From positions 124,001 to 188,000 of the forward strand of contig NZ_KZ826483.1 in assembly GCF_003205515.1 (NCBI RefSeq): a stretch of DNA of 64,000 nt, written 5' to 3'. The DNA comes from Litorivita pollutaquae (GTDB lineage: Bacteria > Pseudomonadota > Alphaproteobacteria > Rhodobacterales > Rhodobacteraceae). Positions 31,101 to 34,568 of this stretch are shown piece by piece. Each line of letters starts with the position of its first letter. The first letter of the stretch is position 1. The position numbers and the translations under genes were made by a program. Under the pieces are notes generated by a model. That model did no database searches, was not told where the DNA came from, and saw nothing but the letters and a program-made list of their open reading frames with translations.

Positions 31101-32675
31101 TCAGGACGGATCGGTGTAGGACACTTCGCGGCGATCCTCGCCCGGCGCGGATTTTTCACGCCGCACCAACAAGCGGTTGAGCGCATGCACATAGGCGCGC
31201 ACCGATGCGACAACCGTATCGGTATCGGCGGATTGCCCCGTCACGATGCGCCCGTCCTCTTCCATCCGCACAGAAACCGTTGCCTGCGCATCGGTGCCTT
31301 CGGTGACGGCGTGCACTTGGTAAAGTTGCAGGCGCGCGCCGTGCGGGAAAAGCGCCTTGACCGCGTTGAAGGCCGCGTCCACGGGGCCGTCGCCGGTGGC
31401 TTCGGTCGAGGCTTCGGCACCGTCAATCATCAAGGTGAGTTCGGCGGTTTGTGGCCCCTCGGTGCCGCATACGACGCGCAGGCGTTTGACCTGAATACGG
31501 TCGTTTTCGGGGTCGTCACCGGCCCGCATGAGCGCAACGAGGTCGTCATCATAGACCTCTTTCTTGCGGTCGGCGAGTTCCTTGAACCGCACAAACACGT
31601 CTTTGAGTTGGTTGTCGGCGAGATCAAAACCGAGGTCGCCCATTTTGGCCCGCAAAGCCGCGCGTCCCGAGTGTTTGCCAAGCGGCAAGGAGGTACCGGC
31701 AAGGCCAACATCCTGCGGGCGCATGATCTCGAAGGTTTCGGCGTTTTTCAACATGCCGTCCTGATGGATACCGCTTTCATGGGCAAAGGCGTTCTTGCCG
31801 ACGACGGCTTTATTGAACTGCACAGCAAAGCCCGAAACGGTGGCGACACGGCGTGAGATATTCATGATCTTTGTCGTGTCGATGTCGGTTCGGTAGGGCA
31901 TGATATCGTTGCGCACCTTGAGCGCCATGACCACCTCTTCGAGGGCGGTGTTGCCCGCGCGTTCGCCAAGGCCATTGATGGTGCATTCGACCTGCCGCGC
32001 CCCTGCGTCGACAGCGGCAAGAGAGTTGGCCGTCGCCATGCCCAAATCATTGTGGCAATGGGTGGAAAAAATGACCTCATCGGCGCCGGGCACGCGGTTC
32101 AAAAGCATACGGATCAACGCGGCGCTTTCGCGCGGGGCGGTGTAGCCAACGGTGTCGGGAATGTTGATCGTCGTGGCACCGGCCTTGATGGCGATTTCCA
32201 CCACGCGGCAGAGGTAATCTTCCTCGGTGCGTGTGGCATCCATCGGCGACCATTGCACATTGTCACACAGGTTGCGCGCGTGGGTCACGGTTTCATGGAT
32301 CCGTTCGGCCATCTCGTCCATATTGAGGTTCGGAATAGCGCGGTGCAAAGGCGAGGTGCCGATGAACGTATGGATGCGTGGTTGCGCGGCGTGTTTCACG
32401 GCCTCCATGCAACGATCAATATCGGCAAAACTGGCGCGGGCAAGGCCGCAAATCACCGAGTTTTTCGAATTCATCGCAATCTCGGAGACAGCTTTGAAAT
32501 CACCCTCGGAGGCAATGGGGAACCCGGCCTCGATGATGTCGACGCCCATTTCGTCGAGCAATCCTGCGATCTCGAGCTTTTCGGCGTGGGTCATGGTTGC
32601 GCCGGGGCTTTGCTCGCCGTCGCGAAGTGTCGTGTCAAAAATTAAGACGCGGTCTTGTTTGGTTGTATCGGTCAT
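31101..32675 (-). CDS. leuA: 2-isopropylmalate synthase
   Basis: LeuA condenses acetyl-CoA with 2-oxoisovalerate in the first committed step of leucine synthesis. The 524-residue enzyme has the TIM-barrel start FDTTLRDGEQSPG and the metal-binding STHCHNDLGMA. GLGERAGNTALEEV and the HESGIHQDGML loop follow. A C-terminal regulatory domain (about 390-510) normally binds leucine for feedback inhibition. The start has only a weak AAGAGA site. The leader upstream encodes a leucine-rich peptide and can fold into competing stems, so expression is probably controlled by leucine supply. Confidence 0.96.
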   Translation of the reverse strand: MTDTTKQDRVLIFDTTLRDGEQSPGATMTHAEKLEIAGLLDEMGVDIIEAGFPIASEGDFKAVSEIAMNSKNSVICGLARASFADIDRCMEAVKHAAQPRIHTFIGTSPLHRAIPNLNMDEMAERIHETVTHARNLCDNVQWSPMDATRTEEDYLCRVVEIAIKAGATTINIPDTVGYTAPRESAALIRMLLNRVPGADEVIFSTHCHNDLGMATANSLAAVDAGARQVECTINGLGERAGNTALEEVVMALKVRNDIMPYRTDIDTTKIMNISRRVATVSGFAVQFNKAVVGKNAFAHESGIHQDGMLKNAETFEIMRPQDVGLAGTSLPLGKHSGRAALRAKMGDLGFDLADNQLKDVFVRFKELADRKKEVYDDDLVALMRAGDDPENDRIQVKRLRVVCGTEGPQTAELTLMIDGAEASTEATGDGPVDAAFNAVKALFPHGARLQLYQVHAVTEGTDAQATVSVRMEEDGRIVTGQSADTDTVVASVRAYVHALNRLLVRREKSAPGEDRREVSYTDPS

Positions 32676-32696
32676 TTTGGGATCTCTTTTCTATGT

Positions 32697-32773
32697 CTGC
32701 TAAGCTTTTGGCGCGAAAGGCACATCCTCTGAGCGGTCGCGCCGAAAGGGCACGCTCAGAGGCGGCTTAGCAG
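32697..32773 (-). promoter_or_regulatory. leuA leader with mutually exclusive stems
   Basis: Three complementary pairs occur in the leader. CCTCTGAGCG (32753-32762) pairs with CGCTCAGAGG (32726-32735). GGCGCGA (32737-32743 region) pairs with TCGCGCC (32710-32716). CTGCTAAGC (32765-32773) pairs with GCTTAGCAG (32697-32705). The first two interleave and cannot form together. The first arm and the outermost arm contain leucine codons of the leader peptide, so a stalled ribosome would change the fold. No U-run follows, so control may act by Rho or on leuA translation. Confidence 0.7.
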
Positions 32774-32842
32774 CAGACGCAGGGCAATCGCCGCGCGCGG
32801 GTGGCGTGCGGTGGCATCGGCGCATGTGCGCGGTGCGGTCAT
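32756..32842 (-). CDS. leuA leader peptide
   Basis: A 28-residue open frame upstream of leuA ends in IALRLLLSRL. Five of its last eight residues are leucine, and one codon is CTA, uncommon in this GC-rich genome. It stops inside the first stem of the leader. The ATG at 32842 is preferred because the predicted promoter leaves about 20 bases of leader before it. An in-frame ATG at 32863 would be nearly leaderless. The peptide itself is probably not functional; translation through its leucine codons reads out charged leucyl-tRNA. Confidence 0.7.
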   Translation of the reverse strand: MTAPRTCADATARHPRAAIALRLLLSRL

Positions 32843-32870
32843 GATATGGCCTGAAATCTTCATACCGCGA

Positions 32871-32898
32871 TTTATACATCGCAGCGGGTAAATGAAAA
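32871..32898 (-). promoter_or_regulatory. Predicted promoter of the leuA leader
   Basis: TTTTCA and TATAAA are separated by 16 bases on the minus strand, placing transcription initiation just upstream of the leader peptide. Motif reading only, supported by its position relative to the leader. Confidence 0.45.
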
Positions 32899-33056
32899 GC
32901 GCGAATTTTGCTGTGGTGGATATTGATGGGAAATTGGCGGCGGTTTTGAGGGTCATACCGGGCTGCGCCCCAGTGCCAGTGCCGCGCGCGACAAGGCGGT
33001 CACATATGCGCCGCCCCGATCCGCCGCCGCAGAGATTATGCCGTTGTTAGCCGTCG

Positions 33057-34568
33057 CTATTCGGCGGGCGGGGCATCATCCGTGGCGGTATCTGTCGGCG
33101 TGGTTTCTGTAGGGGCGGTGTCTACAGGGGCAGCGGGGGCAGGGGCCGCCGCCGCATCTGTATCGCTTTCCAATGCGCCGTTGTTCCAATCGCCGCTGGC
33201 TTCCTGACCGCTGGCATAGCGCATGGTGCCGCTGCCTTGGCGTTTTCCGGCGCGGAAATGGCCCTCGTAGATGTCGCCATTGGCATATGTGGCAACGCCG
33301 GTGCCGCTGATCTCTCCGGCGTCCCATTCACCTTTATAGCTAAAGCCATCTGCCATTTTGATCGTGCCGATACCGTGGCGTTGGCCCCCTGCAAATTCAC
33401 CCTCGTAAACGGTGCCGTCGGGGTAGGTGGCGCGGCCGCTGCCGTGGCGTTGGCCATTTTCCCATTCGCCTTCATAGCGATAGCCATCGGCATAGGTCAT
33501 CACGCCTTGGCCGTGGTTTTGCGCGTTGTGGAATTCACCTTCATAGACAAGGCCATTGGGGTATTCGGCGCGGCCGGTGCCCTCAATGATCCCCTCTTTC
33601 CAATCGCCCTCATAGGTCGAGCCGTCTGCATAGGTGATTTTGCCGGTCCCATCGGCCAGATCATCGCGGAATTGCCCGACATAAACAGAACCGTCGGGGT
33701 AGGTGACTTGGCCTTGGCCTTCGATTCGGCCCGCAACCCAATCGCCAATGTATTGATATCCGTCCGCGCCGGTAAAGGTGCCCTTCCCCTGACGTTTGTC
33801 GTCGGCGAACTCACCCTCATATGTGTCGCCATTGGCGTAGATGACGGTGCCGTTGCCTTGGCGGCGGCCTTGGACCAGCGTGCCTTTGTAGACATCGCCA
33901 TTGGCTTGGGTCAGTGTGCCGCTGCCGTTGATTTGGCCACCCTTCCATTCGCCTTCATAGACAAGCCCGTCAGGGATGGTCAATTTGCCGAGACCTTCGC
34001 GCGCGCCATTCGCGATGTCCCCCTCGTAGAGGGTGCCGTCTGGGTAGGTGATCGCGCCGGTGCCCTGTTTGACACCCTCAATCCAATCGCCATCATAGAT
34101 ATAGCCGCCGGGGCTTTGCATTTTGCCTTTGCCATGGTGCATGGCGTTGAGAAAGCCGCCTTCGTAACGCACGCCATTGGCATAGACCGCGATGCCGGTG
34201 CCCATGATCTTGCCGTCTTCCCATGTTCCCTCATAGGTGCCACCATCGGAAAAGACGATTTTGCCGGTGCCTTCGGGTTTGCCCTTGGCAAATTCACCGA
34301 CGTAAACCGACCCGTTGGGAAACCGCGCCGTGCCTTGGCCGCGAATTTCGCCCATCTCCCAATCACCGGCGTATTCATAGCCATTGGGCAGGCGGTAGGT
34401 GCCGGTGCCATGTTGCAGCCCGTTCTTGAACGTGCCCTCATAGACCCCGCCATCATCATATTGTTTGGTTTGCACCTCACCGTCTTGGGCCATGACCGGC
34501 GCGGTGACAAGGCTGGCTCCTGCGGCAGTCAGAATGCAAAAGGACAATGTTTTCAGAGCGGTGTTCAT
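33057..34568 (-). CDS. Exported MORN-repeat protein
   Basis: The 503-residue protein has a Sec signal peptide (hydrophobic residues about 5-25, cleavage near VMA27-Q28). It then consists almost entirely of MORN repeats of about 23 residues. I count 18 clear copies of the Y-x-G-x-[FW]...G-x-G pattern from Y43, and one degenerate copy ending near residue 464. The last 39 residues are Ala/Pro/Thr/Asp-rich. MORN arrays form elongated beta-sheets and mediate protein or membrane contacts, but a specific function for this exported form is unknown. GGAG precedes the ATG. It stands alone between the leuA leader and nadE. Confidence 0.9.
   Translation of the reverse strand: MNTALKTLSFCILTAAGASLVTAPVMAQDGEVQTKQYDDGGVYEGTFKNGLQHGTGTYRLPNGYEYAGDWEMGEIRGQGTARFPNGSVYVGEFAKGKPEGTGKIVFSDGGTYEGTWEDGKIMGTGIAVYANGVRYEGGFLNAMHHGKGKMQSPGGYIYDGDWIEGVKQGTGAITYPDGTLYEGDIANGAREGLGKLTIPDGLVYEGEWKGGQINGSGTLTQANGDVYKGTLVQGRRQGNGTVIYANGDTYEGEFADDKRQGKGTFTGADGYQYIGDWVAGRIEGQGQVTYPDGSVYVGQFRDDLADGTGKITYADGSTYEGDWKEGIIEGTGRAEYPNGLVYEGEFHNAQNHGQGVMTYADGYRYEGEWENGQRHGSGRATYPDGTVYEGEFAGGQRHGIGTIKMADGFSYKGEWDAGEISGTGVATYANGDIYEGHFRAGKRQGSGTMRYASGQEASGDWNNGALESDTDAAAAPAPAAPVDTAPTETTPTDTATDDAPPAE
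33177..34442 (-). repeat. MORN coding repeat array, 18 plus 1 units of about 69 bases
   Basis: The DNA of the MORN gene is a tandem array of diverged 69-base units. Copies share the protein pattern but not long identical DNA stretches, so recent expansion is not indicated. Confidence 0.85.

Follow-up and report, generated by a model that had tools for sequence, protein, structure and literature searches.

We analysed a 64,000-nucleotide stretch of the Litorivita pollutaquae genome (contig NZ_KZ826483.1, positions 124,001 to 188,000; hereafter the window), in which the 2-isopropylmalate synthase gene leuA lies on the minus strand. Read along that strand towards leuA, the sequence holds a CTTTTC hexamer, a TATAAA hexamer, a leucine-rich leader ORF, RNA arms in the order A-B-E-C-E'-D, a purine-rich Shine-Dalgarno (SD) stretch and the leuA ATG. 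Upstream of the leader, also on the minus strand (33057-34568), a 503-residue protein with 11 MORN-repeat stretches is encoded. The pair counts in the following list refer to alignment A1 (47 of 66 candidates), which was picked for strong A:D pairing, and the counts therefore lean towards A:D.

32894-32899, minus strand: -35-like CTTTTC; the TATA box follows after 17 nt
32871-32876, minus strand: -10-like TATAAA, 7 nt before the leader ATG
32756-32863, minus strand: leader ORF of 35 codons, MKISGHIMTAPRTCADATARHPRAAIALRLLLSRL followed by the stop, probably leaderless; 110 of 115 family regions have leucine-rich codons ahead of TGAGCG
32765-32773, minus strand: arm A, leucine codons CTG CTA plus AGC (CTGCTAAGC); pairs with arm D
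32753-32762, minus strand: arm B (CCTCTGAGCG), contains the leader stop; pairs with arm C (99.8% of A1 cells paired)
32749-32752, minus strand: arm b (TGCC), may lengthen the B:C hairpin via the start of arm E (99.5% of A1 cells paired)
32737-32743, minus strand: arm E (GGCGCGA); pairs with arm E' or arm b
32726-32735, minus strand: arm C (CGCTCAGAGG), partner of arm B
32710-32716, minus strand: arm E' (TCGCGCC), partner of arm E
32697-32705, minus strand: arm D (GCTTAGCAG), partner of the leucine codons (arm A)
32683-32692, minus strand: likely leuA SD region, the best anti-SD duplex at most 18 nt from the ATG; abuts the extended A:D helix
31101-32675, minus strand: leuA, 2-isopropylmalate synthase, 524 aa, with HMGL-like, HCS_D2 and LeuA_dimer domains

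The three complementary pairs that the first-pass annotation had placed upstream of leuA are all present, with every arm at its coordinates on the minus strand. In B:C, CCTCTGAGCG (32762-32753) faces CGCTCAGAGG (32735-32726); in E:E', GGCGCGA (32743-32737) faces TCGCGCC (32716-32710); and in A:D the leucine codons of CTGCTAAGC (32773-32765) face sequence just before leuA, GCTTAGCAG (32705-32697). The leader ends in LLLSRL, and its TGA (32758-32756) lies within arm B, so that translation stops inside the first pair, as had been read. The ORF itself stands, too, although not with the 28 codons originally assigned from the ATG at 32842: its start is probably the ATG at 32863, 21 nt (7 codons) upstream, giving 35 codons, since the spacing of a conserved TATA-like box fits that ATG.

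In 96 of 109 relatives an in-frame leader ATG follows this box at a distance of 6-8 nt. In control searches shifted by 24-48 nt, with the ATG picked alike, seven shifts gave counts of 0-4 per 109 leaders, and the shift of +30 gave 21, where the search probably picks up CATAT inside the leader. With the best-TATA choice of ATG applied to the leaders and not to the control, the counts were 97 of 109 vs 4 of 435. The profile of 103 promoters aligned on the TATA box has a C/T-rich, CTTT(T/C)C-like box 17 nt above it. The position of the promoter suggests that transcription starts at or beside the leader ATG and that the leader is translated leaderless. Two side observations concern the same stretch: the -35 box of the leader promoters, in the window (32894-32899) and in relatives, is CTTTTC-like and not TTGACA; and 55 of 109 leaders have His-Ile somewhere in residues 5-9 (codons 6-7 in the window, 32848-32843), the remaining N-terminal part being variable. 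By eye, the window also seemed to offer a second leader ORF, read from arm C onwards and overlapping leuA at an ATGA; it was rejected, as the frame stops early in L005 and L009.

The predicted fold of 32676-32842 is better than that of dinucleotide shuffles (z -2.84; of 200 shuffles, 2 did as well). The minimum-energy fold of the window combines A:D with an extended B:C, in which the b and E stretches pair in a slightly shifted register: a conserved TGCC after the leader stop pairs with E and lengthens the hairpin. Topologically, B:C and E:E' cross, and A:D encloses both. It had been held that the first two pairs cannot coexist, which is correct for a nested fold only, as the pseudoknot loops of 9, 1 and 9 nt given by the window coordinates would allow an H-type pseudoknot. 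Over 110 leaders, with the best E:E' helix picked in each, the loops have medians of 8 (L1), 2 (L2) and 8 nt (L3). Loops of such size could be spanned by an H-type pseudoknot with a 10-bp first stem. B:C and E:E' may thus alternate or form a pseudoknot. An E:E' helix of at least 5 bp can be found in 110 of 110 leaders when the best helix is picked and no control is set beside it. The distance from E' to D is short (median 3 nt in the 63 leaders with strong A:D) and would let E:E' stack on A:D.

Conservation and covariation of the leader

To describe the leader in relatives, we used a family sample that we take, by inference, to be Rhodobacteraceae. The LeuA start was matched in 195 of its 198 genomes, and the 115 distinct upstream regions that we read came from the better LeuA matches, a non-random draw from the 195. 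A leader was counted when at least three leucines fell within the last ten codons before TGAGCG. By this count 110 of the 115 regions have the leader immediately ahead of leuA; counts that depend on the leuA frame use 101 of these 110, the other nine being without a recognised frame. The exceptions are L021, L024, L028, L102 and L118. In four of the five the leader stands before a cupin gene that precedes leuA, as it does in L127, outside the 115; L028 is the sole region among the 115 without a recognisable leader.

Where a cupin gene has been inserted, the leader precedes it in five of five loci. A script placed arm D 3-9 nt before the cupin ATG in four of the five, where the duplexes range from -10.2 to -14.4 kcal/mol. 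In L298, the remaining locus, it picked a too-early ATG, and by eye ACTAAGGAG lies 6 nt before the likely one. Such insertions amount to a natural experiment, the putative switch standing before the first gene once a cupin gene enters the operon. As to gene content, the small cupin gene sits between leader and leuA in L021, L024, L127, L298 and L299, the leader heading the cupin-leuA pair, and the L127 copy is a Pfam Cupin_2 protein. A different arrangement was seen by eye in L017, where an extra short ORF starts just after arm D and its stop overlaps the leuA ATG, which suggests translational coupling to leuA.

We then have a cognate test, in which the duplex energy of each arm with its own partner region is compared with that obtained with other species' partner regions (n=110 leaders), reversed or complemented sequences serving as controls. 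Two helices, A:D and E:E', covary beyond controls. For A:D the mean is -12.6 vs -9.7 kcal/mol (z -13.1; controls -2.3, 0.5 and -2.8). For E:E' the z is -10.4 (controls -5.6, -2.2 and 0.8), part of which reflects relatedness or composition, because reversed-sequence controls reach -5.6. B:C contributes little covariation (z -5.4), since arm B is nearly invariant. Arm A also shows cognate pairing with the 32 nt that follow C (z -9.9), within which D often starts. The leuA leader peptide with interleaved stems that the first-pass annotation had read is thereby supported: the peptide is kept in 110 of 115 regions, and the second and third of the pairs covary.

The same relation can be read from individual codons and arms. 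When the codon four before the stop is CTA, D is of the TTAG type in 24 leaders and of the CTAAG type in 1; when it is CTT, D is of the CTAAG type in 40 and of the TTAG type in 1. Among the 110 leaders, 43 score as neither, their D being unrecognised by this simple motif, and 1 scores as both. The choice between synonymous leucine codons therefore follows RNA pairing. For E and E', the 110 leaders divide into GGCGC/GCGCC (86), GGTGC/GCACC (8), GGTGC/GCGCC with a G-U pair (6), GGCGC/GCACC (1) and others (9), and GGTGC tracks GCACC (Fisher p 1.3e-7, 101 of the 110). The cognate tests and these counts use all 110 leaders and are independent of the selection that shaped A1.

Beyond the family, model R1, run with stricter filters that lose weak matches, hit 19 of 385 genomes of the class with an E-value of at most 0.05. 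Of these, 5 belong to the family and 14 do not, and in 12 of the 14 a leuA-like start lies just downstream. We also read 68 leuA regions of the class, from a sample in which 93 of 190 genomes had no LeuA-start match at 1e-12 and so fell outside the regions read. Of the 68, 67 come from other families (some sharing one), and L230 is a cupin-type locus of the window's family. A stop-in-stem leader, that is, a leucine-rich ORF whose stop lies in a hairpin 5' arm of the form CC(C/T)C-stop, is present in 32 of these 67 regions, against 0 or 1 in ten dinucleotide-shuffled sets. In a looser list of 38, TGA faces TCA in 18 of 25, TAG faces TTA or CTA in 7 of 9, and TAA faces TTA in 2 of 4; having been selected for pairing, this list illustrates the point and does not prove it. 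Class-wide A:D pairing is moderately supported by the sequences (z -6.0 vs -3.2 in the control, 32 leaders). Pairing of the loop with downstream sequence, as in E:E', gives z -1.7 vs -2.2 for the reversed control in the same 32 leaders; since this is no better than the control, we rejected E:E' as a class-wide feature and restrict it to the window's family.

Ribosome positions and the readout

Neither an intrinsic terminator nor a catalogued RNA accounts for the element. There is no terminator-like site in 32301-33200 of the window, and a stretch before leuA is U-rich in only 5 of 101 relatives; the missing U-run reported earlier is thus real, and the intrinsic terminator was dropped as an explanation. 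An Rfam family was dropped likewise: in Rfam 15 the covariance models gave, for 31500-34000 of the window, only isrG at 33284-33465 on the plus strand (12.7 bits vs a cut-off of 100), and for 13 loci of the class only HgcC, away from the leader (23.2 bits vs 50). The element is a genuine leucine leader, conserved ahead of leuA and unmatched in Rfam, and by its anatomy it would work like a ribosome-gated attenuator.

To model this, the stretch covered by a ribosome was blocked and the leader refolded (n=101 leaders; for A:D, figures are given for the window only). The mean for B:C is 0.81 in the free RNA, 0.78 with the ribosome stalled on the leucine codons and 0.00 with the ribosome at the stop, and for E:E' 0.07, 0.09 and 0.64. 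In the window, A:D goes from 0.74 (free) to 0.00 (stalled) and 0.01 (at stop), B:C from 0.96 to 0.80 and 0.00, and E:E' from 0.00 to 0.06 and 0.96. The leuA stretch from -28 to -16 is predicted to open from 0.36 in the free state to 0.55 when stalled and 0.56 at the stop, again over the 101 leaders. The SD stretch barely changes over the same leaders (0.58, 0.64 and 0.63), and in the window it is ~85% unpaired in all three modelled states. As modelled, then, the switching logic is that of a classical attenuator with a third helix added that leads to the gene's start.

The mechanism that we propose would run as follows. Transcription would start at or next to the leader ATG, and the leader would be translated leaderless. 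With no ribosome present, or after its release, A would pair with D just before the leuA SD region, closing a domain that holds the stop-containing B:C and/or the crossing E:E', and initiation on leuA would be hindered. When charged Leu-tRNA is scarce, the ribosome would wait on A, so that A:D could not form; B:C would form and keep E off E', and the leuA start would be open. When leucine is plentiful, the ribosome would reach the stop in B and cover B, allowing E:E' to form, and after release at the stop A:D would close next to E'. A:D is displaced as well when the ribosome sits at the stop, so timing or E:E' would have to account for any difference between leucine-rich and leucine-poor conditions.

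Where such a switch is read out depends on arm D. A:D is strong in 63 of 101 leaders, in which D ends a median of 16 nt before the leuA ATG (10-90%: 8-19); in the other 38 it does not reach -11 kcal/mol. Among the 63 strong-A:D leaders, 19 have a D that overlaps the SD; in the window A:D abuts the SD and does not cover it. The first-pass annotation had left the readout as Rho-dependent or translational. We lean towards the latter, because U-rich stretches are rare, D lies a median of 16 nt before the ATG, and at loci with an inserted cupin gene D goes with the start of whichever gene comes first. The odds seem to us slightly in favour of reading the element as a ribosome-gated leucine attenuator of leuA, with the readout probably at translation initiation; the translational step, the order of folding and the response to leucine are what we infer from sequence and modelling.

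The most serious rival is ribosome-mediated attenuation of transcription, in which E:E' would be the off hairpin, working by way of Rho or of RNA polymerase pausing and needing no U-tract, and a stalled ribosome would favour B:C and let the polymerase pass. The modelled ribosome positions do give the alternative helices of a classical attenuator: E:E' at the stop exceeds the free state in 85 of 101 leaders, and the difference between the at-stop and stalled states sits in E:E' and not in A:D. It remains a serious rival because the SD barely changes and both ribosome positions free D. However, the rarity of U-rich stretches (5 of 101) and the lack of a terminator-like site in 32301-33200 speak against it, and it has no role for the covariation of A:D or for the placement of D beside the first gene's start; we regard it as possible, though on the unlikely side. 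A regulatory protein or other factor might instead bind the element, the leader peptide being of minor importance, an interpretation that Seliverstov et al. put forward for the LEU element of Actinobacteria. In the available portion of their paper, the same topology is so read and mutations of the leucine codons are described as unlike classical attenuation (PMC1262725). Here, however, 110 of 115 family regions retain the leucine codons, and the promoter is well placed for the leader to be translated; we think this reading improbable. That the arms are chance, or a by-product of GC-rich sequence and conserved leucine codons, is hardly credible: the single-sequence fold reaches a z of only -2.84, and B:C, with B nearly invariant, covaries little, but A:D and E:E' covary beyond permuted partners and reversed controls, and stop-in-stem leaders number 32 among the 68 class regions vs 0-1 in ten shuffled sets.

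Comparison with known leader systems

Read as a ribosome-gated attenuator, the element invites comparison with several known leaders. In the leucine and tryptophan attenuators of Enterobacteria, regulatory codons lie in a short leader peptide and the position of the ribosome chooses between mutually exclusive helices. Regulatory codons and competing helices are found here as well. Unlike those attenuators, the leader described here shows no intrinsic terminator, has an extra long-range helix from the codons to the gene start and has no Rfam match. With a putative switch across the family and related leaders in 32 of the 67 other-family regions, roughly half, it would be a tractable system for attenuation without a terminator.

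Among amino-acid leaders on leaderless mRNA, trpL of Sinorhizobium meliloti (available text of PMC10117765 and PMC7298713) is also alphaproteobacterial and leaderless, as our leader appears to be, but it serves tryptophan, encodes a 14-residue peptide and yields an attenuator RNA via transcription attenuation. LeuL1 of Streptomyces lividans (MRFGLLLLSCRGEGL) is a leaderless leucine-run leader before leuA, described in the accessible part of its report as being without a typical Rho-independent terminator (PMC8079986); it is actinobacterial and of other sequence. An ilvB leader peptide is known in Alphaproteobacteria (PMC1273637, accessible in part), a branched-chain leader of the same class before a different gene, and the accessible text of a review mentions putative leader peptides upstream of branched-chain genes in various Gram-negative species (PMC6123439). 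In the open literature searched, with subscription papers mostly outside it and some sources available in part, we found no leuA leader for Rhodobacter-like or other Alphaproteobacteria.

The closest likeness is to the LEU element of actinobacterial leuA, for which the available portion of the 2005 paper describes a leucine-run ORF, a base stem between the leucine run and the SD box, a pseudoknot, an alternative hairpin and a missing terminator, and leaves the mode of regulation unknown (Seliverstov et al. 2005, PMC1262725). The window's family has a leucine-rich upstream ORF as well (110 of 115 regions), and the crossing helices B:C and E:E', which would lie inside the base stem, are both supported by our cognate tests. 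The sequences are other. The LEU base stem sits on the SD box; A:D here covaries, overlaps the SD in 19 of 63 leaders and abuts it in the window. The stop differs: here it is inside B, and in the 9 actinobacterial examples listed it comes 2 nt downstream of B.

We looked at 80 named actinobacterial leuA loci, of which 78 have leucine-run ORFs. The arm order A-B-E-C-E'-D can be placed in 73 of the 78, in a search that itself imposes this order and filters for a B-like motif and a B:C of -12 kcal/mol or better and nothing else. In 7 of the 9 examples listed, D coincides with a GGAG-type box. The cognate test is weak there (E:E' z -1.7, A:D z -2.4), the sampled sequences being close to each other. 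Model R1 matches the leader in 3 of the 80 loci, all Nocardia and all weakly (E 0.037, 0.046 and 1.1); two further matches fall outside the leader. The same topology can thus be drawn on the LEU leaders; with R1 matching only 3 of 80, and those weakly, the two may or may not share a common descent. With SD overlap in only 19 of 63 leaders and R1 matches weak and confined to 3 of 80, the element looks like the LEU element and we do not file it as a member.

A bolder reading, which we put forward tentatively and at somewhat below even odds, is that we are looking at the alphaproteobacterial form of one pseudoknotted leucine switch common to two phyla, in which the leucine codons would be the very strand that masks the leuA start, so that decoding and the opening of the ribosome-binding site would be one event, with no terminator needed. 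If true, this would account for the LEU element of Actinobacteria. The 2005 study left open how that element is regulated; since the topologies match, one set of compensatory mutations in a laboratory phototroph could help settle the mechanism.
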